DNA of 64,000 nt from Desulfobotulus pelophilus (GTDB lineage Bacteria; Desulfobacterota; Desulfobacteria; Desulfobacterales; ASO4-4), in the NCBI RefSeq assembly GCF_026155325.1, contig NZ_JAPFPW010000001.1, positions 186,001-250,000 on the forward strand, in the 5' to 3' direction. The translations under genes and the position numbers were made by a program. Position 1 is the stretch's first letter. Every line of letters starts with the position of its first letter. A model generated the notes under the pieces. It ran no database searches and had not been told where the DNA came from. It worked only from the letters and a program-made list of their open reading frames with translations. This document shows, piece after piece, positions 44,398-64,000 of this stretch.

Positions 44398-47300
44398 ATG
44401 TCGAAGGAAGTTATTGGATCCGCTGTCGTCGTGGGTGGTGGTATCACCGGGATGCAGTCGGCGCTTGATCTGGCCGATGCTGGATACTATGTGTATCTGG
44501 TGGAGAAGGGATCGTCCATTGGCGGCGTTATGTCGCAGCTGGACAAGACCTTTCCGACCAACGACTGCGCCATGTGAATTATCTCACCTAAACTGGTCGA
44601 GGTCGGCCGGCACCTGAACATTGAGTTATTGACGCTAAGTGAAGTTACGTCCATTACCGGAGAAGCTGGAAATTTCGAGGTCGAAGTTTTCAAAAAGCCC
44701 CGCTATGTGGACATGGACAAATGTATTGCCTGTGGTGCGTGTACGGAGAAATGTCCTAAAAAAATTGATGATCTGTACAATGCATCCTTGAAAAAGCGTA
44801 AAGCCATTTATGTGGAATACGATCAGGCAGTGCCCCTGAAGTACGTTATAGACCCTGCAAGTTGTATCAAGCTTACCAAGGGAAAATGTGGTAACTGCGA
44901 AAAGGTGTGTCCTGCCGGAGCTATCAATTATGACGACAAGCCGGAAACCCTGAAGCTGAACGTAGGGTCCATCGTGCTGTCTCCGGGCTTCAAGCCCTTT
45001 GATCCCACTATTTTTGATACCTATCAGTATGCCAAATTCCCCAATGTTGTGACCTCTATGGAGTTTGAAAGAATTCTTTCCGCTTCCGGTCCCACCATGG
45101 GGCATCTCACCCGTATGAGCAAGGATCACGAGGAACCGAAGAAAATTGCCTGGTTTCAGTGCGTGGGCTCCCGTGACATGAACCGTTGCGACAATGCTTA
45201 TTGTTCTTCGGTATGCTGTATGTACGCCATCAAGGAAGCGGCCATTGCCAAGGAACATAATGGTGATGATCTGGACTGCGCCATTTTCTACATGGACATG
45301 CGTACCCACGGAAAAGATTTTGAGCGCTACTATGAGGATGCCAAAAAGAAGGGCGTCCGTTTTGTCCGCAGCCGTGTGCATACCATCAATCCCATTCCGG
45401 AAACTGATTCCCTTGAGGTTCGTTATGTGACCGATGACGGCCGTCTTGAGACGGAAATCTTTGACATGATTGTTCTGTCCATCGGCCTTGAAACAGATCC
45501 TTCCACAGTGAAGCTGGCCAATGATCTGGGCATCAAACTGACCAAGGGTAACTTTGCTGAATACGAGACCTTTAAGCCGGTTTCCACCTCCCGTGAAGGT
45601 ATTTTTGTGGCCGGCGCCTTCGCTGGTCCTAAGGACATTCCTCAGGCCATGATTGATGCCTCGGCGGCGGCTTCTGCTGCGGGCGAGCTGCTGACATCGG
45701 CCAGGAATACCCGTACAAAAACCGCAGAGGCCGTGCCTGAAACAAACGTTGCCGGTGACCGCCCCAGAGTGGGGGTCTTTGTCTGCTCCTGCGGCACCAA
45801 TATTGCCGGGACTGTCGATGTAAAGGCCGTGGCGGAATATGCGGGAGGTCTTCCCTATGTGGAATACGTGACCAACAACCTCTTTTCCTGTTCCCAGGAT
45901 ACTCAGGACAAGATGGCGGAGATCATCAAGGAAAAGAACCTGAACAGGGTGGTTGTGGCGGCCTGTACGCCCAAAACCCATGAGGGACTCTTCCAGGAAA
46001 CCCTGATCAATGCAGGGCTGAATAAGTATCTTTTTGAGATGGTTAACATTCGTAACCATGATTCCTGGGTACATAAAGAAACTCCGGATCTCGCCACGGA
46101 TAAAGCCAAAGACCTGATCCGTATGGGGGTTGCCAAGGTTGCACTTTTTGAGCCCCTGAAAGAAGGGGAGCTGAACGTCAACCAGGTGGCCATGGTGGTG
46201 GGCGGTGGTGTTGCGGGCATGACCGCAGCCAAGGCCCTTTCCAGTCAGGGATACCATACCCACATCATAGAAAAATCAGACCGCTTGGGTGGTCAGGCTC
46301 TGAATCTCTTTAAAACCATCAAAGGCGAAGATGTGGCGGAGAAGGTGGCGGATCTGGAAAATGCCATCAAGGTGGATGCCAGCATCACCGTTCACCTGAA
46401 TACGGAAATCGCAACGGTTGACGGTTTTGTTGGGAACTTCAAAACTCAGCTCAAAGGCGGTTCCGAGCTTCTCCTTGAACATGGCATTGCTGTCATGGCA
46501 ACAGGAGCTTCGGCCCTCCAGCCCAGCGAATATCTTTATGGCGAAGATCCAAGGATTCTCACCAGCCTTGAGATGGATATCAAGTTTAAAACCAAAGATC
46601 CCATCCTGGACAGTGCGGAAAGTGCCGTGTTCATCCAGTGCGTGGGCTCCCGTCAGCCGGATCGTCCCTACTGTTCCCGCGTGTGCTGTACCCACTCCAT
46701 TGACAATGCTCTGGAGTTGAAAAAGCATAAGCCGGATATGGATGTATTTATTCTGTACAGAGACATCCGGACCTACGGCGAAAAAGAATACCTCTACCGT
46801 GAGGCGAGGGATGCGGGTGTGATTTTCATCCGCTATGAGCTTGACGCTAAGCCTGTGGTGGAAAAAGCAGGTGACAGTCTTGTGGTTCGTGTTAGGGATC
46901 ATGTGCTGGGTCGTCCTCTGGAGCTGAAGGCAGATATTCTGACTCTGGCCTCCGCTGTTGTGCCCAACAAAAATGAAGCACTGGCCCAGTTTTTCAAGCT
47001 GCCCATGAACGCAGATGGCTTCTTTGTGGAACGCCATGCCAAGCTCGGACCCAGCGAATTTGCCACAGACGGCGTCTTCCTTGCCGGTACGGCCCATTAT
47101 CCCAAGCCTCTGGATGAGACCGTGGCCCAGGGAAGGGCGGCTGCGGCAAGGGCCGTGACACTTTTGGCCAGGCAGAAGGTGTACACCTCCGGTCAGGTGG
47201 CCAAGGTGGATCCTGCTGTGTGCTCCTCCTGCGGAATCTGTGTGAGTGTGTGCCCCTATTCTGCCCCCAGCGTTATGGATACGGGTTATTATGCGGGCAA

Positions 47301-47430
47301 GGCTGAAATCAATCCCGTTCTCTGCAAGGGCTGCGGCCTTTGTGTGGCGGCCTGCCGCAGTGGTGCCATCCACCATGGCGGTTTTGATAACAGCCAGATT
47401 TTTGCACAGATTTTTACCATGAGTGCATAA
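44398..47430 (+). CDS. hdrA: HdrA-type flavoprotein with selenocysteine encoded by in-frame TGA (Sec60)
   Basis: 1010 aa when TGA at 44575-44577 is read as selenocysteine. HdrA is the FAD-bearing, electron-bifurcating subunit of heterodisulfide reductase-type complexes. Layout: N-terminal GGGITG Rossmann-like part with PTNDCAM-Sec at 60; [4Fe-4S] motifs [12 protein letters not shown] (about 108) and CGNCEKVCP (about 163); second, thioredoxin-reductase-like FAD module [12 protein letters not shown] (about 600); two C-terminal [4Fe-4S] motifs [12 protein letters not shown] and [12 protein letters not shown] (about 941-990). The paralogue at 61632 has Cys60 here. The ATG has AGGAG 8 nt upstream. 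Read without recoding, the gene would be split, with a false start near 44629. First gene of the operon. Confidence 0.93.
44575..44610 (+). promoter_or_regulatory. Sec codon UGA and putative SECIS hairpin of hdrA
   Basis: UGA at 44575-44577. Downstream, CUGGUC (44593-44598) pairs with GGCCGG (44605-44610), including two G-U pairs, around the loop GAGGUC (44599-44604). The loop contains GGUC as in the E. coli fdhF SECIS, and the loop starts 21 nt after the UGA, within the usual range for bacterial SECIS elements that bind SelB. Confidence 0.75.
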
Positions 47431-47437
47431 CCATTTT

Positions 47438-47470
47438 CCTTTCAGGGTTTCTTAAGGATGCCCTGAAAGG
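47438..47470 (+). other. Intercistronic hairpin between hdrA and flxD
   Basis: CCTTTCAGGG (47438-47447) and CCCTGAAAGG (47461-47470) form a perfect 10-bp stem with a 13-nt loop, 8 nt after the hdrA stop and 25 nt before the flxD start. No T-run follows, so it is more likely an RNA processing, stability or attenuation structure than a full terminator. Confidence 0.7.
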
Positions 47471-47495
47471 ATTCTATACATAAGGAGAAACAGCC

Positions 47496-47927
47496 ATGAG
47501 CTGGGAACCTAAAATTGTGAGTTTCCTTTGCAACTGGTGCAGCTACGGTGCGGCGGATCTGGCAGGCGTAAGCCGGTTTCAGTATCCCCCCAACATCCGG
47601 GTAATCCGCATCCCCTGCACGGGTCGTATGAGTCCGAAATTTTTCCTTTCCGCATTAAGGGAAGGTGCCGATGCCGTATGGGTATCCGGCTGACATCCCG
47701 GTGACTGCCATTACCTGGAAGGTAATTACTATGCACGCCGCAGATTTCAGCTGTTCAACGACCTGATGGAACACATGGGTGTTGAGAAAGGTCGTCTCCA
47801 TTATTCATGGATCTCTTCCGCCGAATCCACCAAGTTTGTGGAAGTGGTCAAGGAAGTAACGGATGCTGTAAAGGCCGTTGGTCCCAATACTAATTTTGTG
47901 AAGCGTTACATGAAGGAAGCGGAATAA
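47496..47927 (+). CDS. flxD: MvhD/FlxD-type [2Fe-2S] subunit with selenocysteine (Sec66)
   Basis: 143 aa when the TGA at 47691-47693 is read as selenocysteine. MvhD-family proteins carry a [2Fe-2S] cluster and pass electrons to HdrA. Ligand candidates: C12 and C15 (CNWC), C41 (IPCTG), Sec66 and C71 in SG-Sec-HPGDCHY; family members normally have SGCHPGDCHY, so TGA replaces the conserved Cys. Sequence after the TGA stays in frame and on-family to the end ([12 protein letters not shown]). AAGGAG lies 8 nt before the ATG, and the stop overlaps the next start (TAATG). A standard gene caller would report only a 65-residue stub. Confidence 0.92.
47691..47726 (+). promoter_or_regulatory. Sec codon UGA and putative SECIS hairpin of flxD
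   Basis: UGA at 47691-47693. AUUACC (47710-47715) pairs perfectly with GGUAAU (47721-47726) around the loop UGGAA, which holds the guanines typical of a bacterial SECIS apical loop. The loop starts 22 nt after the UGA, almost the same distance as in hdrA. Confidence 0.7.
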
Positions 47928-48874
47928 TGAGCGGAAACATCGACAGGATTAAAGAGATTGCCCGCGGCCTTCTCGAATCAGAGAAGGTCGATGTCGTGAT
48001 CGGCTTCAAAAAGGGAACGCTTCCCGTCATGAGTGAGCCGACCATCATTCGTAAGGCATCGGATACAAAGGATCTGATCTGGGACGCCACCTGCCGTCTC
48101 AATCTGTGCAATTATTTAACGGGCCGCAAGGACCGCATCGGTATCATTGCCAAGGGCTGTGATGCGCGGAACATTGTGGGCCACATTGTGGAAAACAAGA
48201 TCAAGCGGGATCAGCTTGTGATCATCGGTGTTCCCTGCACGGGCATGGCGGACAAAAAAGCCCTTTCCGACCTTGTTGGCGGTGAGGTAACCGCTTACGC
48301 CGAGGCCGGTGATCAGATTACGGTAAGCGGCCCTGCGGGAGAAAAGACTGTTTCCAAGGCAGATGTTCTCCAGTCCAACTGCTGCACCTGCATTAAACGC
48401 AACCCCGTAATTTTTGACGAGATGGCAGGGGAGCCCGTGGAAGAACTTTCCCCTGACAATCGCTTTGCGGACGTGGAAGCCATAGCTTCCATGGATGCGG
48501 CTGCCAAGTGGGGGTATTTTGAGGAGCTTCTTTCCGGCTGCACCCGCTGCTATGCCTGCAAGAACGCCTGCCCCTTGTGTTATTGTCCCACCTGTTTTGT
48601 GGATGAATCCCGTCCCCAGTGGGTGGGTAAGGGAACGGACCCCATTGATATCCGCACCTACCACTTCCTGCGGGCCTACCATTGTGCAGGGCGTTGTACG
48701 GATTGTGGTGCCTGTGAGGCGGCCTGTCCCATGGATATCAAAATGCGTGCCTTCACACGGAAAAGCATCAAGGACTGTGTGGACAACTACGGTTGGGAAA
48801 CGGGTATGAAGGAGGGTGTGCGGCCGCCGCTGGACACCTTTAAAACCGATGACCCCGAGGCCTTTATCCGCTAG
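47927..48874 (+). CDS. flxC: Fe-S electron-transfer subunit, FlxC-like
   Basis: 315 aa soluble Fe-S protein of the NADH/Hdr module. The N-terminal half resembles the coenzyme F420 hydrogenase/dehydrogenase beta-subunit family (GIIAKGCDARNIVGHI, IGVPCTGMADK). Cysteine clusters: CCTCIKRNP (about 150), CTRCYACKNACP followed by CYCPTC (about 205-225), and CGACEAACPMD (about 265), enough for two or more [4Fe-4S] clusters. Start overlaps the flxD stop by one base. The assignment to FlxC rather than a generic dicluster ferredoxin rests on operon position and the neighbouring FlxD, FlxB and FlxA-like genes. Confidence 0.75.
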   Translation: MSGNIDRIKEIARGLLESEKVDVVIGFKKGTLPVMSEPTIIRKASDTKDLIWDATCRLNLCNYLTGRKDRIGIIAKGCDARNIVGHIVENKIKRDQLVIIGVPCTGMADKKALSDLVGGEVTAYAEAGDQITVSGPAGEKTVSKADVLQSNCCTCIKRNPVIFDEMAGEPVEELSPDNRFADVEAIASMDAAAKWGYFEELLSGCTRCYACKNACPLCYCPTCFVDESRPQWVGKGTDPIDIRTYHFLRAYHCAGRCTDCGACEAACPMDIKMRAFTRKSIKDCVDNYGWETGMKEGVRPPLDTFKTDDPEAFIR

Positions 48875-48909
48875 GCCCTTACGACCCCAAGCATTATCGG
48901 AGGAAAATT

Positions 48910-49947
48910 ATGAGTTATATCCGAATTGCCAAGGCATCCTGGGACGGTGGGCTTGAGAAGGCGCGTAAAGCCTACGAACTCATCGGACCTGTGCCAGAAA
49001 AAGACAGTCACAAGTACGCGGTATTGGCCGCGGGCCAGCTTCCGGACATGGGATTTAAAAGCACAAAGCTGTCTCCCAAGTGGGTTGTGTTTCCCCAGTC
49101 TGAAGTGATGTTTGAATATACCCTGGATGAGAGCAAGGCCAACCACCACATCCTTCAGGAAGTGCCCGCCGCACCGGGCGCACGGGCTGTGATCGGCATC
49201 CGTCCCTATGATGCCAAAGCCATCCAGCTGACTAAGATGAACTTTGACAACAAAGATTACAAAGATCCCTTCTGGCTGCGCAATTATGAGCGCTGCACCT
49301 TTGTGGGCCTTGCCATCAATGAGCCTTCTTCAACAGATTTTTCCACCTCCTGTGGCACAGGTCCCTTTGCCGAAGAAGGCCTTGATGTACTGCTGGTGGA
49401 TGCAGGGGATGCTTTCATCGCCAAGGTGTTGACGGATAAGGGGAAAAAATTCCTTTCCGAAGCAGGCTTTGCCGAAGAAGCCGGTGCCGATGCGGCCAAA
49501 GCCGTGGAAGATCTGAAGGCCAAGGCAGAAGCGGCCATCACTTCGAAGGTGAGCTACAATAAGATTGCTGGCAAGACCATCATGGATCTTTATGATGCCC
49601 CCTTTTGGAAGGATGTTCTCTTTGGCTGCATCAACTGCGGTACCTGTACCTATGCCTGCCCCACCTGCTGGTGCTTTGACATTCAGGATGAGGTGAAGGG
49701 TACGGATGGTGTGCGCGTGCGGAACTGGGATTCCTGCATGACGGGTCTTTTTACCCACCATGCCTCGGGCCATAACCCCCGCGAACACGAATGGGAGCGT
49801 ACCCGCCAGCGTTTCATGCACAAGCTGAAATATTTTGTGGACAAGTACGATGCGGGCCTGATGTGTGTGGGCTGCGGTCGCTGCGTGGAGCAGTGCCCTG
49901 CCAACATTGACATCCGGACGGTGTGCAATACCCTGAACGATTTTTAA
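48910..49947 (+). CDS. flxB: 4Fe-4S dicluster subunit, FlxB/AsrA-like
   Basis: 345 aa. Resembles AsrA and sulfhydrogenase beta subunits: an N-terminal alpha/beta region (GARAVIGIRPYDAKAIQL, FSTSCGTGPFAEEGLDVLLVD) and a C-terminal pair of ferredoxin motifs CINCGTCTYACPTCWC (about 240) and CVGCGRCVEQCP (about 320), with NWDSCMTGLFTHHASGHNPR between. Likely relays electrons between FlxA and the other Fe-S subunits. An alanine/lysine-rich insert lies at about residues 180-215. GGAGG is 6 nt before the ATG. Confidence 0.78.
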   Translation: MSYIRIAKASWDGGLEKARKAYELIGPVPEKDSHKYAVLAAGQLPDMGFKSTKLSPKWVVFPQSEVMFEYTLDESKANHHILQEVPAAPGARAVIGIRPYDAKAIQLTKMNFDNKDYKDPFWLRNYERCTFVGLAINEPSSTDFSTSCGTGPFAEEGLDVLLVDAGDAFIAKVLTDKGKKFLSEAGFAEEAGADAAKAVEDLKAKAEAAITSKVSYNKIAGKTIMDLYDAPFWKDVLFGCINCGTCTYACPTCWCFDIQDEVKGTDGVRVRNWDSCMTGLFTHHASGHNPREHEWERTRQRFMHKLKYFVDKYDAGLMCVGCGRCVEQCPANIDIRTVCNTLNDF

Positions 49948-50058
49948 ACCGGCCACGTGGCAGGGCAGGCTTTTGGCCTGCCCACTACCCCGTGCCTGCA
50001 TATCGGTGCAGCCCCCTGTGTCTGCCCACTGGAAATAGCAGGATAAGGAGAAGACAAG

Positions 50059-50904
50059 GTGAGAAATCCCAATCCATATGAGCCGTATCCCGTCCGTATA
50101 GACGACATCACGGTGGAGACGGAAGACAAGAGCTTGAAGACCTTCAAGTTCGTCTTCCTGAATCCTGAGCATGAGGAGATGTTTGCGTATAAGGCGGGCC
50201 AGTTTGCAGAGCTTTCCATTCCGGGTCAGGGCGAAATACCCATCGGCATTGCGTCCAGCCCTACGGAAAAGGGTTTTGTGAAATTCACGGTGTTTAAAAC
50301 CGGCAAAGTGACAAGCTATCTGCATTCCATGCAGGTGGGCGATATCATGGGTCTTCGTGGCCCCATGGGCAACTGGTATCCCTGGGAGATCCTTGAGGGG
50401 AAGAACATACTGATTGTGGGGGGTGGTTTTGCTTTCACGACCTTACGTTCTTCCATCAAGATGATGCTGGATAACCGGGATAAGTTCGGCAAGATCGATG
50501 TGGTGTATGGTGCGCGTTCACCGGGTATGCTTCTTTACATGGATGATCTGAAGGAATGGGAAGCGCAGGGTAAGATCAACATGCACATTACAGTCGACAA
50601 AACCGATGATCCTAACTGGAAATATCATCAGGGTTTTATTCCTCCGGTTGCGGAAAAGGTGGCACCCCCTGCCAGTGATGATACCTATGCCATTGTCTGT
50701 GGTCCTCCCATGATGATCAAGTTCACCATGCCTGTGCTGGACAAACTGGGCTACAAGCATGACCACATTATCATGAGTCTTGAAAACCGTATGAAATGCG
50801 GCATTGGCATGTGCGGTCGCTGCAACATCGGCAAAGAGCTGGTGTGCAAGGACGGTCCTGTGTTCACTCTGGATCAGCTCAACCAGATGCCCAAAGAGTA
50901 TTGA
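50059..50904 (+). CDS. flxA: NAD(P)H-binding flavoprotein with C-terminal [2Fe-2S], FlxA-like
   Basis: 281 aa ferredoxin-NADP reductase-like subunit, as in AsrB, PyrK and hydrogenase gamma subunits. FAD-binding beta barrel with YKAGQFAELSIPG and IGIASSPTEKG, then an NAD(P)-binding domain with VGGGFAFTTLRSSI and VCGPPMMIKFT, and a C-terminal [2Fe-2S] motif CGIGMCGRCNIG...C. It is the NAD(P)H entry or exit point of the Hdr module. The GTG start at 50059 is supported by AAGGAG 8 nt upstream; it lies 111 nt after flxB. Last gene of the operon before dsrC. Confidence 0.82.
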   Translation: MRNPNPYEPYPVRIDDITVETEDKSLKTFKFVFLNPEHEEMFAYKAGQFAELSIPGQGEIPIGIASSPTEKGFVKFTVFKTGKVTSYLHSMQVGDIMGLRGPMGNWYPWEILEGKNILIVGGGFAFTTLRSSIKMMLDNRDKFGKIDVVYGARSPGMLLYMDDLKEWEAQGKINMHITVDKTDDPNWKYHQGFIPPVAEKVAPPASDDTYAIVCGPPMMIKFTMPVLDKLGYKHDHIIMSLENRMKCGIGMCGRCNIGKELVCKDGPVFTLDQLNQMPKEY

Positions 50905-51041
50905 GGCACTCCATAACTTGTAGTGGGGATGTGGCCTGAAAATGGGAGCTCGTTGGGAAACACTGAACTTCACAGGAAATATTCCGAAACCATCCTCTCT
51001 GATTTTCAGGAATACCTCCAGCTTCTAAGATGTATAATGCG

Positions 51042-51087
51042 AAAGTTGCGACCGTTCCCCGGTTTCTGGTGGAGCGGCCGCAACTTT
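51042..51087. other. Long near-perfect hairpin between flxA and dsrC
   Basis: AAAGTTGCG (51042-51050) pairs with CGCAACTTT (51079-51087); after one A/C mismatch CCGTTCC pairs with GGAGCGG, and the tip can pair further, giving about 20 bp over 46 nt. Little T-run follows. It could end the flx transcript, be a processing site, or be a small repeat-type element. The rest of the 379-nt gap carries the dsrC promoter region. Confidence 0.65.
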
Positions 51088-51174
51088 ATTCCGGGGATTC
51101 CTGCCCGTTTATGGGCAAGCGTGTTCGCAAAAGTTTGACACCTAAGAAGGAATGATGTAAAAACATCTTGCTTG

Positions 51175-51203
51175 TTGACAAGGCATGCTTGTTTCGTTAG
51201 GTA
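51175..51203 (+). promoter_or_regulatory. Candidate dsrC promoter
   Basis: TTGACA (51175-51180), 17-nt spacer, TAGGTA (51198-51203), 80 nt before dsrC. A second candidate lies just upstream: TTGACA (51135-51140), 17 nt, TAAAAA (51158-51163). Direct repeats GCTTGTT at about 51170 and 51187 flank the -35. These suggest dsrC is also transcribed on its own, separately from flx. Confidence 0.55.
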
Positions 51204-51283
51204 GATACGCTAACAAAAAGTTAAGGATATAACGGGAACCCCCCCATAAGAATGATATCTTAATTACAGGAGGTCTTTTTAAA

Positions 51284-51601
51284 ATGGCTGAAGTAGAATT
51301 CAAAGGAAAAAAGTTTGTTGTGGATGAAGATGGCTTTCTTGAGGACTTCAATACCTATACGGAAGAATGGGTTGAGTTCTGCATGAAAGAAGAAGGTATC
51401 GAAACCCTGACAGAAGAACACTGGAATGTAATCAATATTCTTCAGGATTATTACAAGAAGAATGGTATTGCTCCCATGGTGCGTGTTCTTTCCAAGCTTA
51501 CCGGTTTTAAACTTAAGCACATCTATGAGCTTTTCCCCTCAGGACCCGGTAAGGGAGCTTGTAAAATGGCTGGTCTTCCCAAGCCTACGGGCTGCGTTTA
51601 A
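51284..51601 (+). CDS. dsrC: Dissimilatory sulfite reductase partner DsrC
   Basis: 105 aa sulfur carrier that takes sulfite-derived sulfur from DsrAB as a trisulfide and is then re-reduced. The functional C-terminal arm is intact: C93 and C104, separated by ten residues (GACKMAGLPKPTGCV). The N-terminal core (DEDGFLEDFNTYTEEWVEF, LTEEHWNVINILQDYY) is standard, so this is true DsrC and not a TusE/RspA-type relative lacking one cysteine. AGGAGG lies 10 nt before the ATG. Located directly after the Flx/Hdr genes, which are candidates for re-reducing it. Has its own promoter and a strong terminator. Confidence 0.97.
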   Translation: MAEVEFKGKKFVVDEDGFLEDFNTYTEEWVEFCMKEEGIETLTEEHWNVINILQDYYKKNGIAPMVRVLSKLTGFKLKHIYELFPSGPGKGACKMAGLPKPTGCV

Positions 51602-51633
51602 TATCTGCCGTTGCAACACTGTATTTTTTGCTG

Positions 51634-51671
51634 AAAAGAAAAGGTCCTGCCATGGCAGGACCTTTTCTTTT
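51634..51671 (+). terminator. Terminator of dsrC, perfect 38-bp palindrome
   Basis: The whole segment is an exact inverted repeat centred on 51652/51653: AAAAGAAAAGGTCCTGCC followed by its complement. It gives a GC-rich stem flanked by A-run and T-run, the classic bidirectional terminator form. Confidence 0.9.
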
Positions 51672-51722
51672 ATCAGAAAGATGCCGTATGATTGCATCCG
51701 TGTACTTTATGGGAGAAAGTCT

Positions 51723-52130
51723 ATGCATATGAAAGTTCAGACATCCACGCGTAAAGAACTCGTGGACATTACGGCACGGGTGCAGGAAGTTGTGGCCGCA
51801 TCGGGTATGGTGACAGGTCTTTGCCATATTTTTGTTCCCCATACCACAGCGGCCATCACTCTGAATGAGAATGCCGACCCGGATGTGCAGGAAGACATGA
51901 TCCGTACGCTTTCCAGATTGGTGCCGGTGGATCCGGATTACAGGCACATGGAAGGGAATTCCGATGCTCATATGAAGGCCTCATTGATCGGCGCTTCGGA
52001 GCTGGTGCCTGTGCGGGATGGCCGTCTGGATTTAGGTCGCTGGCAGGCCATTTATCTGTGGGAATTTGACGGACCCCGGAGGCGCGAGGTGAGAATCATG
52101 CTGATGCCCCAGCAGGAAAGGGGACTTTAA
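51723..52130 (+). CDS. yjbQ: YjbQ family protein (UPF0047)
   Basis: 135 aa protein of the YjbQ/UPF0047 family, for which a weak thiamine-phosphate-synthase-like activity has been reported but whose real role is unclear. Conserved histidine motifs: CHIFVPHTTAAITLNENAD, HMEGNSDAHMKASLIGAS and GRWQAIYLWEFDGPRRREV. The ATG at 51723 has GGAGA 6 nt upstream; the frame remains open further upstream across the terminator and is not coding there. It is separated from ahbA-like by 3 nt, so the two form an operon with the nitrilase gene. Confidence 0.9.
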   Translation: MHMKVQTSTRKELVDITARVQEVVAASGMVTGLCHIFVPHTTAAITLNENADPDVQEDMIRTLSRLVPVDPDYRHMEGNSDAHMKASLIGASELVPVRDGRLDLGRWQAIYLWEFDGPRRREVRIMLMPQQERGL

Positions 52131-52133
52131 ATC

Positions 52134-52580
52134 ATGGATGATCTGGATAAAAAGCTTTTGAACAGTATACAGTCAGGTTTTCCCATTTGTTCCAGGCCCT
52201 ATGGTGCCATTGGAGAAATGCTGGATATGGGCGAGACCGAGGTGCTGGAGCGATTGAAGAAGCTCAAAGAGTCCGGTATTATCCGTCGAATAGGGGGCAA
52301 TTTTGGGCCTGAGAATCTTGGGTATTTTTCCACCCTTTGTGCCGCAAAGGTGCCGGAGGATAAGCTGGAAGCCTTTACGGAGACAGTGAATTCTTACCCC
52401 GGTGTCACCCATAATTATATCCGGGAAAATGACTGGAATGTGTGGTTTACCTTTATCGAGCCTTCACGGGAGATTATTGCCCATAATCTGGAGGAGATAG
52501 CTAAAGAAACGGGAGTTACGGAGATCCTCAACCTGCCGGCCACCCATGTTTTTAAAATCCGTGCAAAGTTTGCCCTATAA
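52134..52580 (+). CDS. ahbA: Siroheme decarboxylase subunit, AhbA/NirD-like (Lrp/AsnC fold)
   Basis: 148 aa with an Lrp/AsnC-like layout: an N-terminal helix-turn-helix (IGEMLDMGETEVLERLKKLKESGIIRRIGG) and a C-terminal ferredoxin-like domain ending NLPATHVFKIRAKFAL. In sulfate reducers the AhbA/AhbB pair decarboxylates siroheme to didecarboxysiroheme for alternative heme synthesis. Lacking AhbB beside it, an ordinary Lrp-type regulator cannot be excluded, but the IIRRIGGNFGPENLGY segment and C-terminal motif favour the decarboxylase family. Choice of AhbA over AhbB is tentative. Starts 3 nt after yjbQ. Confidence 0.75.
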   Translation: MDDLDKKLLNSIQSGFPICSRPYGAIGEMLDMGETEVLERLKKLKESGIIRRIGGNFGPENLGYFSTLCAAKVPEDKLEAFTETVNSYPGVTHNYIRENDWNVWFTFIEPSREIIAHNLEEIAKETGVTEILNLPATHVFKIRAKFAL

Positions 52581-53677: not shown

Positions 53678-54895
53678 ATGGGCATTTTTCGTCCCATGCT
53701 GTGTGTTCCCTTCATGCTCTTTTTTGTGGTTTTACCCCTTTCCCTTTGGGCTTTGGAACCTGAGCATTTATCCTTGCCCCGCACCCTGGAAATCGCTTTT
53801 GAACGGGATACCACCCAGGAAAGCTTTAAGGCCAGGGCTGCAAGTCTTCATGAGCGTGGTGCCGTGGCTTCCCGGCTTCCGGATCCCCGTCTGCTTTTGG
53901 GGTATGAAAAGGCGGAAAGCATGGAGGAATACATGTTGGGAGTGAGGCAGGAAATTCCCCGCAGTAGCCGTTTGCGTCTTAAACAGGATCAGTTTGGCGT
54001 GCTGGCTTCTGCCCAGGAAAGGCAGGCTGAAGTCTGGGATCGGCAATTAAAGAGAAATGTGCGCATGGCTTATCTCGATCTCTGGTACCAGCAACAGGCC
54101 TTAAAGATTGTACGCCATCACCTCAGTCTTCTTTCGGAGCTGGCAGGAGCGGCGGCTCAGCAATATGCCGTGGGCAGGGTGAGCCAGCAGCAGCTTGTCA
54201 TGCTGGAGCTTGAGGAAGATAAGGAGAAGGATCGTCTGGCCCGCAGCCTTGGCGATGAAGAGGCGGCCCGGGCGAGGCTGGCCCGCTGGATCGGCAGCAT
54301 TCCGGAAACCCTTCAGCTGGATGAAAAAAGCCCCCCGTTGCCCTCCCTTCCTCCCCTTGAAGCTTTGAAGGCGGCACTTCCGGAGCATCCGCTTCTGGCG
54401 GTGGATCAGGCGAGCATTCAGGCAGGTGAAATGGAGGTGAGACTGGCGGAACAGTATTATACGGGTTTCATGGTGGATGGCCTGTATACCCGAACGGATG
54501 AGGACCAGCAGAAATTCAACCTCATGTTTTCCATCGAAATTCCCCTTGCGCCCTCCGGGAGGCAACAACGCAACGCCGCTGCTGCCCGGCACCAGGTGCG
54601 CGCCACAGGCTATGACCGGCTGGAGCGCCTGCGCCAGATGGAAGGGGAGGTGGAAGCAGGGTATGTACGCTGGGAAAGACTGGGGCAACGCATGGATCTG
54701 TACCAGACCCGGATTTTACCCCAGAGTCACATGGTCAGTGAGCTTGCCGCTTCGGGTTATCAGCACAGGGTTGGAGAGTATGCGGGCTGGCTGCGCTCGT
54801 CTGTGGCGGCCTTTGAAAATGAACTTTCCTATCTGCGTCTTTTAACGGAGCAGGCCAGTGTGCAGGCGGAACTCCTCTATTATACGGAGAAATAA
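53678..54895 (+). CDS. cusC: Outer-membrane efflux channel (CusC/TolC family)
   Basis: 405 aa TolC-like protein with a signal peptide (LCVPFMLFFVVLPLSLWA, cleavage near residue 27). Two long helical halves typical of the family: ARAASLHERGAVASRLPDPRLL and DQASIQAGEMEVRLAEQYY, the second leading into SIEIPLAP. Forms the outer-membrane exit duct of the Cus pump encoded downstream. AAAGGAAAA precedes the ATG. cusB starts 3 nt after it. A TTGACA lies at 53525-53530 in the 210-nt upstream gap, but no good -10 was found. Confidence 0.87.
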   Translation: MGIFRPMLCVPFMLFFVVLPLSLWALEPEHLSLPRTLEIAFERDTTQESFKARAASLHERGAVASRLPDPRLLLGYEKAESMEEYMLGVRQEIPRSSRLRLKQDQFGVLASAQERQAEVWDRQLKRNVRMAYLDLWYQQQALKIVRHHLSLLSELAGAAAQQYAVGRVSQQQLVMLELEEDKEKDRLARSLGDEEAARARLARWIGSIPETLQLDEKSPPLPSLPPLEALKAALPEHPLLAVDQASIQAGEMEVRLAEQYYTGFMVDGLYTRTDEDQQKFNLMFSIEIPLAPSGRQQRNAAAARHQVRATGYDRLERLRQMEGEVEAGYVRWERLGQRMDLYQTRILPQSHMVSELAASGYQHRVGEYAGWLRSSVAAFENELSYLRLLTEQASVQAELLYYTEK

Positions 54896-54898
54896 ACC

Positions 54899-56389
54899 AT
54901 GAAATTTTCATCCCTGTTCAAGCTGGCTTTTGCCTTTATCATCGGTGTTTTTCTCACAGGGGCCTTTTTCCTGTGGCCCTACGGGGAGGAGGATCACAGC
55001 ATCCATGGAGAATCCGTTTTGGGCTCAGAAGAACGCGTTATCCTTTACTATCGTCATCCCCATAACCCCCAGGTGACATCGGAAACCCCGCGTAAGGATG
55101 AGATGGGAATGGATTATATTCCGATCTACGCCGATGCCGCAGGGGATGCCTCTGCATCCGGAGTCCGGATTGCTCCTGAAACCCGGCAGAACCTTGGGGT
55201 TCGCACGGCGCATGTTCGCAGGGGAACCCTCTCTCCCCTTGTGGAGGCCGTGGGTTATGTGGACTATGATGAAAATCTGCTTTCCCATGTGCATGTGCGT
55301 ACCGAAGGCTGGGTGGAGCGCCTTGTCGTACGCACGGCAGGGGAAGGGGTGAAAAAGGGGGCGCTGCTCTTTGAGTTCTATTCGCCCCAACTGGTGAATG
55401 CCCAGGAAGAATATCTGCGGATTCTGAACATCGGTCAGCCCGCAGTACGGCAGGCGGCCCGCGAGCGTCTGCTAGCCCTGGGGATGGGCAGGCCTACCCT
55501 TGAAGCTCTGGAAAAAGATCGCAGGGTACGCACCCTGATTCCGGTGTTTGCCCGTCAGGATGGGGTGATAAGCGAGCTTGGTATCCGTGAGGGTATGTTT
55601 GTGACCCCGGCCATGGACATCATGACCCTGGCCGATCTTTCGAGAATCTGGATACAGGTGGAGGTTTTTGAACATCAGGCGGCTCAGATTGCAAGGGGGC
55701 AGAAAGCACTTCTGGACATGCACCCTGTGCATGGGGGCAGCCTTGAAGGAGAGGTGGCTTTCATCTATCCGGCTCTGGATCCCAGGACGCGGGCTTTGCG
55801 GGTGCGTTTGACTTTCCCCAATCCCGATGGTCGGCTGAAGCCAGGCATGTTTACCCGGGCGCGTATTCTGGGAGAACCCCGGGAGGATATTCTCCTGATT
55901 CCTTCGGCCAGCCTGATCCGAAGTGGCAACAGCCAGCGGGTGATTGTGGATCGTGGAGAGGGGCGCTTTGAAGCCCTTGAGGTGGAGACCGGCCTGATAA
56001 CAGATGATGAGGTGGAGATTCTTGCCGGTCTTTCCCTTGGCGAGAAGGTGGTGGTTTCAGGCCAGTTCCTGATAGATTCGGAAAGCAGCCTCCGGGGCTC
56101 TTTTCTGCGTATGCAACCCTTGGAGGATTCGCCGCCCGCATCGGGTGAGGCGGTGTGGGCCAGGGGCGTTTACAAGGGTGCTGGCGCCAGTCCGGGATCC
56201 ATCCATGTCAGCCATCAACCCATTGTGGAGTTGGGCTGGCCCGCCATGGCTATGGATCTGGACCTTAAAGAAGGGTTTGAGCTTCCTGCGGATATCCATG
56301 AAGGTATGGAGATTGAATTTGCTTTGGAGCAGGTGGATGAAGTGACTTTCCGCATTGTGGATCTGCGAAGTCTGGAGGTGGCCCCGTGA
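54899..56389 (+). CDS. cusB: Periplasmic adaptor CusB with fused C-terminal CusF-like domain
   Basis: 496 aa membrane-fusion protein linking CusA to CusC. N-terminal membrane anchor/signal, then the HMBD-like stretch YYRHPHNPQVTSETPRKDEM ending in GMDYIPIY (its usual cysteines absent, as in many CusB), the barrel-sandwich and beta-barrel parts (LSHVHVRTEGWVERLVV, VFARQDGVISELGIREGMFV). The last ~75 residues form a CusF-like domain with H439, W447, M450 and M452, the same spacing as the Cu(I)/Ag(I) site of CusF. Fusion of adaptor and metallochaperone on one chain implies direct metal delivery. Overlaps cusA by 4 nt. Confidence 0.9.
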   Translation: MKFSSLFKLAFAFIIGVFLTGAFFLWPYGEEDHSIHGESVLGSEERVILYYRHPHNPQVTSETPRKDEMGMDYIPIYADAAGDASASGVRIAPETRQNLGVRTAHVRRGTLSPLVEAVGYVDYDENLLSHVHVRTEGWVERLVVRTAGEGVKKGALLFEFYSPQLVNAQEEYLRILNIGQPAVRQAARERLLALGMGRPTLEALEKDRRVRTLIPVFARQDGVISELGIREGMFVTPAMDIMTLADLSRIWIQVEVFEHQAAQIARGQKALLDMHPVHGGSLEGEVAFIYPALDPRTRALRVRLTFPNPDGRLKPGMFTRARILGEPREDILLIPSASLIRSGNSQRVIVDRGEGRFEALEVETGLITDDEVEILAGLSLGEKVVVSGQFLIDSESSLRGSFLRMQPLEDSPPASGEAVWARGVYKGAGASPGSIHVSHQPIVELGWPAMAMDLDLKEGFELPADIHEGMEIEFALEQVDEVTFRIVDLRSLEVAP

Positions 56390-59300: not shown

Positions 59301-59532
59301 TTCTCTTATGCGGGTAAGGCCCAAAATCATGACAGTTGCCACCATTATCATTGCTCTTTTGCCTATTATGTTCAGTACGGGAACCGGAGCTGAGGTGATG
59401 CGTCGCATTGCAGCGCCCATGGTGGGCGGCATGGTCAGTGCCACGCTTTTGACCCTGGTGGTTCTGCCGTCGGCTTTTTTCTTGTGGAAAAAATATACGT
59501 TCACAGAGGGTTTGCCCAAGAGTAAGCCTTAA
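56386..59532 (+). CDS. cusA: Heavy-metal RND efflux pump CusA (Cu+/Ag+ type)
   Basis: 1048 aa inner-membrane proton-driven pump. HME-RND hallmarks: D405 in GAMVDAAIVMIENVHKH on transmembrane helix 4, and three periplasmic methionines, M567 (in YMPTTLPG), M617 (in PLTMLETT) and M666 (in RIDMLATGI). These have the same 50- and 49-residue spacing as the metal-binding triad of E. coli CusA, which supports a Cu+/Ag+ rather than Zn/Cd/Co substrate. GTG start overlapping the cusB stop. Full length, no interruption. Confidence 0.95.
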   Translation: MINAIIRWSLRNRLLVLLASLFLAVWGMYSLYKTPMDAIPDLSDVQVIIKTSYPGQAPQVVEQQVTYPLSSALLAVPKATAVRGYSMFGDSYIYVIFEDGTDLYWARARVLEYLSQVAGNLPEGARPSLGPDATGVGWVFQYALTDRSGRHDLAQLRSLQDWFLKYELQTVEGVSEVATIGGMVRQYQIVMDPHRLRSYGLTPAQVADAVRAANLESGGSAIEMAEAEYMIRARGYIQSLEDLRQVPLILSPGGTPLLLGDVAEVTTGPQMRRGIAELNGEGEVVGGIVVMRSGENARVVIERVKEKLDQLRPGLPAGVEIVTTYDRSSIIDRAVENLRDTLIKELLVVVLVCMLFLFHFRSSLVIAISLPLGVLGAFAIMKLQGINANIMSLGGIAIAIGAMVDAAIVMIENVHKHMEHQKEGEVREHWTLIREASEEVGPPIFFALLIITISFLPVFTLEAQEGRLFAPLAFTKTYAMAVSAGLAITLVPVLMGYFIRGNIMPEQKNPLNRMLIGIYRPVIRISLDYPATVLVLTLVVSLSMVYPVLRLGSEFMPTLDEGDLMYMPTTLPGISVGKASELLQQTDRLIKTLPEVKSVFGKAGRAETATDPAPLTMLETTIQLKPREEWRPGMTTAKLIQELDSLVQLPGVTNAWVMPIRTRIDMLATGIRTPVGIKVAGTDLGVIQKIGSQIEDVIRGVPGTTSVYSERVTGGRYIEIEIDRPAAARYGLNVADIHGVIRMAVGGMNISTTVEGLERYPINLRYPRDVRDSLEKLQQLPLATPSGVWVSLEQVAEVKITDGPPMIRSENARLSGWVYVDIQGRDLGSYVSEARDAVARYVELPSGYSISWSGQYEYMERANARLKLVIPLTLAIILLFLYLSFGRVGEALLIMATLPLSLVGGFWLLYFLDYNLSIAVGVGFIALAGVAAETGVVMLVYLDQALRRCEEKAFQEKRGVHVAELMEAVKEGSLMRVRPKIMTVATIIIALLPIMFSTGTGAEVMRRIAAPMVGGMVSATLLTLVVLPSAFFLWKKYTFTEGLPKSKP

Positions 59533-59559
59533 AACGTAAAACCAGAAAAGGAGTGCAGC

Positions 59560-60305: not shown

Positions 60306-61592
60306 ATGACAGCTGAAGCGGTACGCGTCGGCGGTACTGGCGGGGATATCTGCAGGATGGCACGGGAAATGGTCCCGGACGGGAATCTCAATGCCTGTCT
60401 CACCTGTGGTACCTGTTCCAGTGGCTGTCCTGCCACAGGACAGTTTGACATGGATCCGCGGAAATTTCTCCGCATGGCCGTGCTGGGCATGGATGAGGCT
60501 CTGGAAAAGCACCCATGGGCCTGGGTCTGCACCATGTGCAGGCGTTGCTATGATGTCTGTCCCATGCAGATCAACATTCCGGCACTCATTTATGAAATCC
60601 GTTCCCGCTGGCCCAGAGAGGAGCGGCCCAGAGGGATTCTGGAATCCTGTAATCTCCATGTGAAATCCCGTGGTGGTGCCATGGGGGTCCCCTTCGAGGA
60701 CTTTAAGTTCACGGTGGATGATCTGGCGGAAGAATGCCGGGAACAGCCGGGGTTTGAGGAGTTACAGGCCCCCATTGATAAAGAAGGGGCCATGTATGCT
60801 TTGAATCAGAACTCAAGGGAACCCGTTGTGGAGCCAGATGAGCTTCTGCCCCTCTGGAAGATCCTCCATACCGTGGGGGCGGACTGGACCTATTATTCTG
60901 AAATGTGGGCCGGTGAGAACTACTGCATGTTCCTTGCCGATGACAAATCCTGGGAATATATCGTCCGTGCCCAGGTGGAACACCTGAACAAACTGGGTGT
61001 GAAGTATTTTGTGAATACGGAATGCGGGCATTCCTTTTACGCCATTTATGGAGCTATCCGCCGTTTCAATATTGAAACTAACTTTGAGTTTATTTCCATC
61101 ATTCAGCTCTATGCCAAATGGATACGGGAAGGCAAACTTCCCGTTAATTCAGAGTGGAACAAGGAGCTTGGCATCAAGTTCACGGTGCAGGATCCCTGCA
61201 ATATCATCCGTAAATCTTTGGGCGATGAAATGGCTGAAGATCTGCGTTTTGTCGTTAAGACGGCCGTGGGGGAGGAAAATTTCATTGATATGGTGCCCAA
61301 CCGTTCCAACAACTACTGTTGCGGTGGTGGGGGCGGGGCGCTTCAGGCTGGCTTTACGGAACAACGGCAGGCCTATGGAAAAATTAAATTTGATCAGATC
61401 GACAAAACCGGCGCCACCTACGTCATCACCCCCTGCCACAACTGCCATGCACAGGTAGAAGATATCGGCCATCATTTTGACGGGAAGTATCATACCGTGC
61501 ATCTGTGGACCATTCTCTGTCTTTCCATGGGGATTCTCGGTGAAAACGAACGGACCTATCTGGGACCGGACCTTGCGGATTTTGGTCTGTAA
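60306..61592 (+). CDS. HdrC/HdrB-like (HdrD-type) iron-sulfur protein
   Basis: 428 aa soluble protein that joins an HdrC-like N-terminus, with two [4Fe-4S] motifs CLTCGTCSSGCP (about 35) and CTMCRRCYDVCP (about 78), to an HdrB-like C-terminal part bearing CCG-type cysteines: TECGHSF, DPCNIIR, YCCGGGGGAL and TPCHNCHAQ. Such proteins act at disulfide or thiol redox sites or pass electrons to them. No membrane segment is seen, unlike HdrE/DsrM-linked forms. GGAGG lies 8 nt before the ATG; hdrA2 follows by 39 nt. It is the only HdrB/HdrC-type gene in the window. Confidence 0.82.
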   Translation: MTAEAVRVGGTGGDICRMAREMVPDGNLNACLTCGTCSSGCPATGQFDMDPRKFLRMAVLGMDEALEKHPWAWVCTMCRRCYDVCPMQINIPALIYEIRSRWPREERPRGILESCNLHVKSRGGAMGVPFEDFKFTVDDLAEECREQPGFEELQAPIDKEGAMYALNQNSREPVVEPDELLPLWKILHTVGADWTYYSEMWAGENYCMFLADDKSWEYIVRAQVEHLNKLGVKYFVNTECGHSFYAIYGAIRRFNIETNFEFISIIQLYAKWIREGKLPVNSEWNKELGIKFTVQDPCNIIRKSLGDEMAEDLRFVVKTAVGEENFIDMVPNRSNNYCCGGGGGALQAGFTEQRQAYGKIKFDQIDKTGATYVITPCHNCHAQVEDIGHHFDGKYHTVHLWTILCLSMGILGENERTYLGPDLADFGL

Positions 61593-61631: not shown

Positions 61632-64000
61632 ATGTCAGAAAAAACCATAGGATCAGTTCTGATCGCCGGCGGCGGAATTGCCGCCATCCAGGCGGCACTG
61701 GATCTGGCCGATTCCGGCTATTATGTCTATATGGTGGAAAAATCGCCATCCATCGGCGGGGTCATGGCCCAGCTGGACAAGACCTTTCCCACCAATGACT
61801 GCTCCATGTGCATCATGAGTCCCAAACTTGTGGAGGTGGGACGGCACATCAATATTGAGCTGGTAACCCTGGCAGAGATCAAGGATATAAAGGGGGAGGC
61901 CGGTAATTTCGATGTGGAGGTCTTCCAGAAGGCCCGTTATGTGGACATGGATAAGTGCATCGGCTGTGGGGCCTGCATGGAAAAATGCCCCAAAAAAGTG
62001 GATGATGAGTACAATATGGGTCTTGACAAGCGCAAGGCCATCTATGTGCCCTATCCCCAGGCTGTACCGCTTAAGTATGCCATTGATGCAGCTAATTGTA
62101 TCAAAATCACAAAAGATAAATGTGGAAACTGTGAGAAGGTCTGCCCTGCGGATGCCATTAATTATAAAGATACGGACAAGACTTTTACCCTTAATGTGGG
62201 TTCCGTCATTCTGGCCACGGGCTTTTCTGCCTACAATCCTTCGGGTAAGGATTTCCTCAACTATGACCGCAGCAAGGATGTGGTCACCTCTCTGGAGTTT
62301 GAGCGGCTCCTTTCCGCATCCGGTCCCTTTCAGGGCCATGTGGTGCGCCTGTCCGATAAGGAACATCCCCATAAAATCGCTTGGTTGCAGTGCGTGGGTT
62401 CCAGGGATGTGAACACCTGCAAAAACGGTCACTGTTCTTCGGTCTGCTGCATGTATGCCATCAAGCAGGCCATCATTGCCAAGGAACATGATCCGGAGCT
62501 GGAAACCAAAATTTTCTACATGGATATGCGTACCCACGGCAAGGGCTTTGAGGATTGCTATAATCAGGCCAGGGAGAACTATGGTGTAAAGTTCCAGCGC
62601 TGTCGTGTGCATACGGTGTATGACAATCTCGATGGTCCGGGACAGGTTCTGGAATACATTGATGAGAACAACCAGCGGGTAACGGAAGTCTATGACATCG
62701 TTGTTCTTTCCGTTGGTATGGAAATCAATGATGAAGTGCGGGCCAATGCAGCAAATATGGGCATTGAGCTGACCGAAGGTGGTTTCGTTAAAACCTCCAC
62801 CTTCAAACCTGTCAGCACTTCCAGGGAAGGGGTCTATGTCTGCGGTGCCTTCCAGGGTCCCAAAGATATTCCCCAGTCCGTTGTGGAGGCAGGTGCTGCG
62901 GCCCTCAATGCCGGAGCAGGCCTTGTTGCTGCCCGGAACACCCTGACCCGCACCGTGGAAAAGGTGAAGGAAAATGACATCCGGGGAGATCGTCCCCGTA
63001 TCGGTGTCTTTGTCTGCCACTGCGGGATTAACATTGCAGGGGTCATTGATGTGGAGGCGGTGAGGGATTATGCGGCAAGCCTGCCCAATGTGGAGTTTGT
63101 GACCAATAATATGTATTCCTGTTCCCAGGATACCCAGGATGGCATGGTCAAGGTCATTAAGGAAAAGGGCTTAAACCGCATTGTTGTGGCGGCCTGCAGT
63201 CCCAGAACCCATGATCCCCTTTTCCAGGAAACCCTCATCAATGCAGGCTTGAATAAATACCTCTTTGAAATGGTGAACATCCGCAACCACGGCTCCTGGG
63301 TACACAAGGATCAGCCTGCGGAAGCCACCCTGAAAGCCAAAGAGCAGGTTCGCATGGCCGTGGCCAAGGTGGCCCTGTTTGAGCCTCTCTCCGAAGCCAC
63401 CCTTGAGATAGACCAGAACGTACTGGTCATCGGCGGCGGGATTTCCGGTATGGCTGCTGCAAGAGCCCTTTCCACCCAGGGCTATCATGTGACTCTGGTG
63501 GAGCGGGACAAGGTTCTGGGCGGTCAGGCAAGAAATCTTTATGTTACGGGCAAGGGCGAGTCCATTGAAGAAGGCCTTGCCGACATGGTCAACAGCGTGG
63601 CTGTGGATGATAAAATTGATGTCCTGCTGGAGTCCAGCCTTAAAAATGTGGAAGGCTTTGTGGGTAACTTTGTCAGTACCATTGAGACAAAGGGCAGTGA
63701 AAAAGAACTCCGCCATGGTGTTACCATCATTGCCACGGGGGCTGAGGAATATAAGCCCACGGAATACCTCTACGGCAGCTCTGATAGGGTGGTGACGGGT
63801 CAGGAGCTGGATGGACTCATGAAGAGCCATGATGCCAAGGTGGAGAAGGCGGAAACCGCTGTCTTCATTCAGTGTGTGGGTTCCCGTGAGCCGGGCCGTG
63901 CCTACTGCTCCCGCATCTGCTGTACCCATACCATGGTGAGCGCCCTTCACCTGAAGGAGAAAAAACCGGACATGGATGTCTTTGTCCTCTACCGGGATAT
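61632..64000 (+). CDS. hdrA: Second HdrA flavoprotein, cysteine form, truncated by window end
   Basis: 789 codons without a stop up to the window edge, so only the N-terminal ~three quarters is seen. Same layout as the HdrA at 44398: GGGIAAIQAALDLADSGYYV, PTNDCSMC with Cys60 where the other has Sec60, [4Fe-4S] motifs CIGCGACMEKCP and CGNCEKVCP, and the second FAD module VIGGGISGMAAARAL. The C-terminal ferredoxin motifs would lie beyond the edge. The ATG has GAGGAG upstream. It forms a transcription unit with the HdrCB-like gene. Several differences in the region after each FAD motif suggest a distinct partner set, which is inference. Confidence 0.92.
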   Translation, partial: MSEKTIGSVLIAGGGIAAIQAALDLADSGYYVYMVEKSPSIGGVMAQLDKTFPTNDCSMCIMSPKLVEVGRHINIELVTLAEIKDIKGEAGNFDVEVFQKARYVDMDKCIGCGACMEKCPKKVDDEYNMGLDKRKAIYVPYPQAVPLKYAIDAANCIKITKDKCGNCEKVCPADAINYKDTDKTFTLNVGSVILATGFSAYNPSGKDFLNYDRSKDVVTSLEFERLLSASGPFQGHVVRLSDKEHPHKIAWLQCVGSRDVNTCKNGHCSSVCCMYAIKQAIIAKEHDPELETKIFYMDMRTHGKGFEDCYNQARENYGVKFQRCRVHTVYDNLDGPGQVLEYIDENNQRVTEVYDIVVLSVGMEINDEVRANAANMGIELTEGGFVKTSTFKPVSTSREGVYVCGAFQGPKDIPQSVVEAGAAALNAGAGLVAARNTLTRTVEKVKENDIRGDRPRIGVFVCHCGINIAGVIDVEAVRDYAASLPNVEFVTNNMYSCSQDTQDGMVKVIKEKGLNRIVVAACSPRTHDPLFQETLINAGLNKYLFEMVNIRNHGSWVHKDQPAEATLKAKEQVRMAVAKVALFEPLSEATLEIDQNVLVIGGGISGMAAARALSTQGYHVTLVERDKVLGGQARNLYVTGKGESIEEGLADMVNSVAVDDKIDVLLESSLKNVEGFVGNFVSTIETKGSEKELRHGVTIIATGAEEYKPTEYLYGSSDRVVTGQELDGLMKSHDAKVEKAETAVFIQCVGSREPGRAYCSRICCTHTMVSALHLKEKKPDMDVFVLYRD

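Follow-up and report, generated by a model that had tools for sequence, protein, structure and literature searches.

Introduction

Deltaproteobacterial operons in which both HdrA and the delta subunit encoded next to it contain selenocysteine (Sec) were reported in 2006 (PMC1794560) and 2009 (PMC2702500) and reviewed in 2026 (PMC13188914), and the same Sec HdrA and delta-subunit neighbors have been described for Asgard archaea (PMC11227280); here and below, the literature is cited from excerpts of the papers. We analyzed an hdrA gene with an in-frame TGA codon that heads an operon of flx genes in the sulfate reducer Desulfobotulus pelophilus, on a stretch of 64,000 nucleotides (the window; NCBI RefSeq assembly GCF_026155325.1, contig NZ_JAPFPW010000001.1, positions 186,001 to 250,000, forward strand). 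The Sec HdrA/MvhD family is already known, and the matched pair of Sec and Cys operons found at this locus is a testable arrangement.

The Deltaproteobacterial operons with Sec HdrA and FrhD/MvhD (PMC1794560, PMC2702500, and PMC8318568) resemble the present one in that HdrA and the neighboring delta subunit both contain Sec, in sulfate reducers or their kin, and, in strain HRM2, in that Cys paralogues exist in the same genome. Those operons, however, include hydrogenase, GlpC, formate dehydrogenase, or HdrL genes, whereas flxCBA takes their place here and a twin operon with Cys in both proteins carries near-identical flxCBA genes. The FlxABCD-HdrABC system of Desulfovibrio vulgaris, as cited in PMC6687939 and PMC10553843, likewise combines FlxABCD with HdrA and has DsrC as a likely partner, but our Sec operon has no recognized HdrB or HdrC beside it, its HdrA is fused to double length, and Sec is present in both HdrA and FlxD. 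Methanococcus maripaludis, an archaeon in which selenium switches between isoforms of HdrA and Vhu/Vhc (hdrAU-vhu and hdrA-vhc; PMC11097638), also holds Sec and Cys sets of HdrA plus an MvhD-type subunit in one genome; regulation was demonstrated there and is a prediction here, and the input there is a hydrogenase instead of NADH.

A structural precedent comes from PMC9012536, in which one HdrA supplies Cys197 as a ligand to the N-terminal-domain cluster of its partner, a cluster on the way to ferredoxin. According to the same source, the tandem or fused HdrAs of anaerobic methanotrophic (ANME) archaea (HdrA3/HdrA4) and the HdrA of Moorella have two halves with complementary Cys197 and N-terminal cluster domain, as does the protein described here, although in the ANME fusions the N-terminal domain is in the first half and Cys197 in the second, an order reversed here, where the residue is also Sec. 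Among the matches listed in our literature search, from which subscription papers are mostly absent, no paper covered a Sec/Cys pair of flx-hdr operons or a Sec-containing Flx-HdrA system, and none placed Sec at Cys197 of HdrA; the structure paper of 2017, where such a connection may be drawn, lies outside this scope. In the excerpts of PMC9012536, selenocysteine is mentioned once, for FdhA.

Two selenocysteine codons in one operon

The hdrA frame runs from ATG 44398 to TAA 47430 with a single internal stop, TGA at codon 60, followed by 950 open codons. On both the N- and C-terminal sides of the TGA, the read-through product matches HdrA in profile and PDB searches (5odc chain A, E = 1.6e-180; NF040770, 944.9 bits, which is below that model's own cutoff of 1100). 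The codon falls at a column that is Cys in homologues, including the paralogue starting at 61632 (PTNDCSMC). One TGA is present in each of the 20 best-scoring HdrA rows, which come from the genome itself and 19 others, with column 60 checked in those 19; the nearest named organism by HdrA is Desulfobotulus alkaliphilus (96%, row L034), in which hdrA and flxD are likewise of the Sec form. Here, G000 denotes the genome itself, and other labels beginning with G and L denote genomes and fetched rows of the comparison set.

Genes for selenocysteine synthesis and insertion were sought in the genome, a draft of 86 contigs, and selA, selB, selC, and selD were all found above cutoff (tRNA-Sec, 75.4 bits; SelB, 379.3 bits; SelA, 620.6 bits; SelD, 375.6 bits), the selD gene itself having one in-frame TGA. 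Because all 14 control genomes also gave matches for tRNA-Sec, SelB, and SelD, only matches above cutoff were counted, a level reached in just 5, 2, and 2 of the 14, respectively.

Archaeal selenocysteine insertion sequence (SECIS) elements lie outside the coding frame. In the present operon, SECIS hairpins were found inside the open reading frame (ORF), right after the TGA. For hdrA, the stem is formed by 44593-44599 and 44604-44610 around a four-base loop, 22 nucleotides (nt) after the TGA. We compared 19 codons, counted from the Sec or Cys codon, in 103 distinct Sec and 34 Cys hdrA genes (from 144 rows with a scored state, of which a motif filter kept 140, with 137 distinct genes among them). 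Among Sec genes that carry the commonest residue, the leading codons at +6 to +11 (CTG, GTC, GAG, GTC, GGC, and CGG) had shares of 95, 97, 100, 100, 95, and 93%, while the same six codons average 26 to 41% of their amino acid across those genes. In the Cys genes, the commonest codon reached only 36 to 68% at these positions, and outside the hairpin of the Sec genes it reached 28 to 74%, except at lysine +5 (AAA, 94%). The 18-base core was also tied to the TGA: TGA plus 15 bases plus the core occurred in 125 of 395 genomes of the phylum (0 for a reversed-pattern control), versus 1 of 395 for TGC or TGT at the same spacing. As a practical matter, this frozen core could flag HdrA genes that have been annotated as broken.

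The second gene, flxD, shows the same pattern. It matches PF02662 at 175 bits, and its sole in-frame TGA, codon 66, lies within GUHPGDCHY and aligns with a Cys of 5odc_D, as would be seen in an MvhD/FlxD (FlpD) selenoprotein. In 94 Sec genes, its codons +6 to +11 (CAT, TAC, CTG, GAA, GGT, and AAT) were 94 to 99% fixed, compared with 46 to 75% for the leading codon in 29 Cys genes, where the commonest residue at +8 is a different one.

It is this synonymous-codon constraint, together with the attachment of the core to TGA rather than TGY, that we take as evidence for the SECIS elements. Folding energy was tried as proof for hdrA and dropped because it was unremarkable against shuffled sequences (z = -0.54 over 48 nt, equaled or bettered by 45 of 200 shuffles; z = +0.47 over 76 nt), which counts somewhat against the element, as does the lack of any SECIS match in Rfam searches, where a single chance match was returned (RF01310, 11.5 bits versus a cutoff of 37). 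The flxD hairpin gave z = -1.19 over 48 bases and z = -2.99 over 76 bases, with 0 of 200 shuffles as good.

Judged by comparison of genes across genomes, TGA codon 60 of hdrA is a selenocysteine codon, and so is the TGA at 47691 in flxD. An earlier note on this DNA, made from the letters alone, had proposed a bacterial selenoprotein HdrA on the strength of the open frame, the 950 on-family codons after the TGA, and the Cys in the paralogue, all of which were borne out, and had named absence of sel genes as grounds for giving the idea up. That reading is now supported by the complete sel set, the TGA in relatives, and the TGA-tied SECIS footprint. The note was nearly right about the hairpin: it is present, but the loop given as GGUC is really AGGU, the C belonging to the closing pair.

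The one TGY gene with the core (L243; G389:C233) encodes an HdrA on the minus strand of its contig, with the core intact behind TGT. This Cys HdrA has a large insert, glutamate-synthase/NfnB-like by eye, and stands beside an all-Cys FlxD; the core looks like a fossil SECIS.

The flx operon

Since hdrA, flxD, flxC, flxB, and flxA are codirectional and have matching domains, the set can be described as a Flx operon. The names rest on domain content and gene order, the latter following what we take to be the order of the type FlxABCD system, and flxC has only weak domain matches. The suggestion that hdrA leads an NADH-linked Flx operon holds by domain content. The earlier description was incomplete: it did not list flxD, which has an in-frame TGA of its own, and it overlooked the twin operon with Cys in both proteins. 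A dsrC-like gene begins 379 bases after flxA.

Linkage of selenocysteine in HdrA and FlxD

The states of HdrA and its neighbor FlxD were compared in 160 HdrA rows, scored by alignment columns. The rows were gathered by similarity to the Sec HdrA and partly by picking stop-free sequences, so they are not a random sample. All 84 intact Sec HdrAs with an adjacent FlxD had a Sec FlxD, with Sec at position 66 in 71, at position 15 in 12, and at both in 1. Sec moves between two Cys positions of this small protein. FlxD/MvhD proteins with Sec at position 15 rather than 66 include L067, L101, L113, and L198, among others. In 34 further rows HdrA could be scored but FlxD was out of reach, and another 16 rows lacked a residue at the HdrA column.

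Of the 26 Cys HdrAs with a FlxD, 16 sit beside an all-Cys FlxD, and in the other 10 FlxD contains Sec. Among these 10, three (L059, L133, and L142) are split HdrAs in which the aligned Cys is nonhomologous, and setting them aside leaves 7 Cys HdrAs beside a Sec FlxD (L172, L177 to L180, L183, and L184). A strict coupling had seemed to hold among intact HdrAs in the first 114 rows (59 with Sec in both proteins, 12 with Cys in both) and was given up when 40 added regions brought in these 7 mixed cases.

Several points temper the linkage. The 7 mixed rows make it one-way; in tree pairs, the 5 independent FlxD switches all accompany HdrA, but 5 is a small number (two-sided p = 0.0625); and L070, a split HdrA, pairs Sec in its N-terminal piece with an all-Cys FlxD, the sole such case seen. 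Because of L070, we confine the rule to intact HdrAs. HdrA differs alone in 3 of 8 tree pairs, in a test that still includes the split rows L059, L133, and L142.

A Cys twin operon with near-identical flxCBA genes

An operon with Cys hdrA, Cys flxD, and a second flxCBA lies 17 kb from the Sec operon. Identity between the two is uneven. At the DNA level it is 65.0% for hdrA, 66.4% for flxD, 97.1% for flxC, and 100.0% for both flxB and flxA, and the near-identical segment spans from 24 bases into flxC to the flxA stop codon; the Sec and Cys HdrA proteins are 62% identical. Both other genomes of the genus in the comparison have one Sec and one Cys HdrA each, and both forms of HdrA and FlxD occur together in G000, G001, G002, G011, G015, G019, G048, and Desulfoluna limicola. 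Such conservation of paralogous operons among relatives would be seen with a Sec/Cys isoform switch.

Trees of 17 rows (support given as bootstrap/Shimodaira-Hasegawa-like approximate likelihood ratio) separate Sec and Cys clades at 100/100 for both HdrA and FlxD. FlxC copies, by contrast, pair by genome in G000 (85/71), G001 (99/94), G011 (99/99), and G048 (98/97). The FlxB copies are identical within G000 and within G011 and pair in G048 (93/92), and the FlxA copies are identical in G000 and pair weakly in G048 (46/86). For flxC, identity between species of the genus is 90 to 95%, while identity between the two copies is 97.1% in G000, 99.3% in G001, and 95.0% in G002. Because contigs break inside flxC or flxB in G001, G002, and G011, only partial copies from these genomes were compared. 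Taken together, these comparisons suggest old Sec and Cys paralogues whose flxCBA genes have been homogenized within some genomes.

Not all of the data fit this picture. Support for the G000 FlxC pair is modest, the flxC copies of G002 form no pair, and no flxCBA was found behind the Cys flxD of G015 in the stretch fetched. Also, homogenization is not universal, because the FlxC and FlxB copies of G019 and D. limicola do not pair by genome.

Proposed mechanism and alternatives

We consider it quite probable that the locus, taken as a whole, is best explained by two Sec codons in a Flx-HdrA bifurcation module in which Sec serves as a cluster ligand, accompanied by a selenium-free twin isoform. 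TGA 44575 and TGA 47691 are each decoded as Sec through the downstream SECIS hairpin, as comparative genomics rather than chemistry shows. The hdrA-flxD-flxCBA product, assigned to its family by domains, would be an NADH-fed Flx-HdrA module for flavin-based bifurcation, with NADH entering at FlxA and electrons passing through FlxB/FlxC and the FlxD [2Fe-2S] cluster to HdrA. Selenium would sit on the cluster of the low-potential branch toward ferredoxin, where it might tune the potential or the resistance to oxidation. The Cys/Cys operon would supply the selenium-free isoform, and the choice between isoforms is probably selenium dependent, as predicted by analogy with M. maripaludis. Most simply, the flxCBA copies could be kept near-identical because both cores use the same input module and undergo gene conversion. 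The full proposal, of Sec60 as an encoded selenolate ligand of a low-potential [4Fe-4S] cluster between the HdrA halves together with a bacterial Sec/Cys selenium switch with gene-converted NADH-input genes, is a tentative one.

Another possibility, itself somewhat doubtful, is that the operons encode two complexes for different acceptors, dsrC going with Sec and HdrD with Cys, and that the shared flxCBA reflects nothing beyond a common NADH donor. The neighboring genes speak for it. They were compared in operons for which flxA was visible and enough flanking sequence was available (with the split-form row L059 set aside). A dsrC gene followed the Sec operon in 13 of 19 cases and the intact Cys operon in 0 of 5, while an HdrD/TmcB-like gene preceded the intact Cys operon by no more than 700 bp in 5 of 5 cases and the Sec operon in 0 of 22; the low HdrA identity points the same way. 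The two operons are therefore not simple twins, and because their neighbors differ, viewing one as a spare copy of the other may be wrong. No hdrB or hdrC was recognized from 44398 to 51601 in the Sec operon, by ORF list and domain searches, or beside either operon, and this also weighs against the module as we propose it. On the other hand, HdrD and DsrC could serve both complexes in trans, and the Sec operon may rely on HdrD from the Cys operon or on a different acceptor. An HdrD-like gene does lie ~1.25 kb upstream of Sec hdrA in L100 and L101, where flxA is not in view, flxC and flxB are homogenized in several lineages, and the archaeal precedent is an isoform switch (PMC11097638).

The assignment of Sec60 as a ligand comes from the alignment with a solved enzyme. 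HdrA residues 8 to 110 align without gaps to 145 to 247 of 5odc_A, so residue 60 corresponds to Cys197. The first half of the fusion contains this residue and an inserted ferredoxin domain; the second half has the N-terminal domain (454 to 610, aligned with 2 to 158 of 5odc_A), no inserted ferredoxin domain, and no Cys at the places of residues 57 and 60. Because it aligns with Cys197, a ligand given across to the low-potential cluster of the partner, Sec60 probably ligates the [4Fe-4S] cluster of Cys 463, 465, 498, and 523, each of which is Cys in 144 of 144 rows. Its partner would most likely be the second half of the same polypeptide, whose cluster domain (about 454 to 600) comes without a Cys197 equivalent. 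An initial guess had been a reactive residue close to the bifurcating flavin, serving as a ligand or in redox chemistry; the 5odc alignment and PMC9012536 sharpen this to a probable ligand that one HdrA half would donate to an Fe-S cluster on the low-potential branch. Metal-ligand roles of selenocysteine have been described for Ni (PMC13188914) and Mo (PMC9012536). If Sec60 does ligate an Fe-S cluster, two natural isoforms in one genome, with near-identical input subunits, would allow the effect of selenium on the bifurcation path to be compared.

It seems unlikely, though worth weighing, that Sec60 is instead a free redox-active selenol, for example, in a selenyl-sulfide with Cys57 (CxxU). 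Cys57 is invariant (144 of 144 rows), the CxxU motif is listed for HdrA in PMC13188914, and the four Cys of the N-terminal domain could by themselves fill a cubane, which also detracts from the ligand assignment. Against the free selenol, PMC9012536 describes the Cys at the same column of the solved enzyme as a ligand to an Fe-S cluster.

A different question is whether the near-identity of flxCBA is an assembly artefact, which we regard as improbable. These are draft genomes, so near-identical repeats may represent an assembly consensus, and the 86 contigs of the present draft and the complete identity of its flxB and flxA copies would fit such an origin, to the detriment of gene conversion. 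However, the flxC copies differ by 2.9%, so the assembly told them apart there, and the contig breaks inside flxC or flxB of G001, G002, and G011 are what true repeats would cause.

The weakest alternative is that translation really ends at the hdrA TGA, or that this codon stems from a sequencing error or from decay into a pseudogene, and that HdrA starts downstream. It has a 933-amino-acid ORF from TTG 44629 in its favor but is practically eliminated by the recurrence of the TGA in the 20 best-scoring rows, by synonymous sites frozen after TGA and unfrozen in Cys genes, by the complete sel set, and by the loss of the GGGITG motif (residues 13 to 18) that such a start would entail.

Features of the locus and neighboring genes

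Coordinates of the features discussed, in window positions unless a genome label is given
Feature	Position	Strand	Remarks
hdrA (Sec form), two fused HdrA halves	44398..47430	+	1010 residues + stop; domains, 5odc alignment
In-frame TGA, hdrA codon 60, read as Sec	44575..44577	+	Aligns with Cys197 of PDB 5odc chain A
hdrA SECIS core CTGGTCGAGGTCGGCCGG	44593..44610	+	7-bp stem, AGGU loop
flxD/mvhD selenoprotein gene (PF02662)	47496..47927	+	143 residues + stop
In-frame TGA, flxD codon 66, GUHPGDC	47691..47693	+	Cys in the three solved MvhD chains shown
flxD SECIS core CATTACCTGGAAGGTAAT	47709..47726	+	Stem-loop 47710-47726
flxC, Fe-S protein	47927..48874	+	Only weak domain matches; name from gene position and Cys motifs
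flxCBA segment	47950..50904	+	99.2% identical (2956 bp) to Cys-operon copy at G000:C1:251208-254163
flxB, AsrA/sulfhydrogenase-beta-like Fe-S protein	48910..49947	+	Domains
flxA, FAD/NAD-binding reductase, DHODB-type Fe-S domain (NADH entry)	50059..50904	+	Domains
dsrC-like gene (PF04358)	51284..51601	+	Two C-terminal Cys; downstream of many Sec operons
HdrD/TmcB-like gene (CCG domain)	60306..61592	+	Directly upstream of Cys hdrA
hdrA (Cys form)	61632..64000	+	Match continues to G000:C1:250646, then Cys flxD and flxCBA
selD with one in-frame TGA (row L030)	G000:C2:165800-168600

Split hdrA genes were seen in L063 (1750-7829) and also in L059, L064 to L066, L070, L072, L077, and L081. In this form, a short Sec-containing N-terminal piece comes first, other genes fill the next ~3 kb (in L063 they look NuoE/NuoF-like by eye), and the remaining HdrA follows behind another N terminus. 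The Sec-bearing piece may act as a stand-alone ligand donor.

In the window, dsrC is followed by a YjbQ-like gene and a gene for the siroheme decarboxylase alpha subunit (AhbA; 51462-52577). Between the two hdrA operons are Cus-type metal efflux genes (53678-59913), which encode an outer membrane channel, a CusB-like protein with a fused CusF domain, a resistance-nodulation-division (RND) pump, and CusF.

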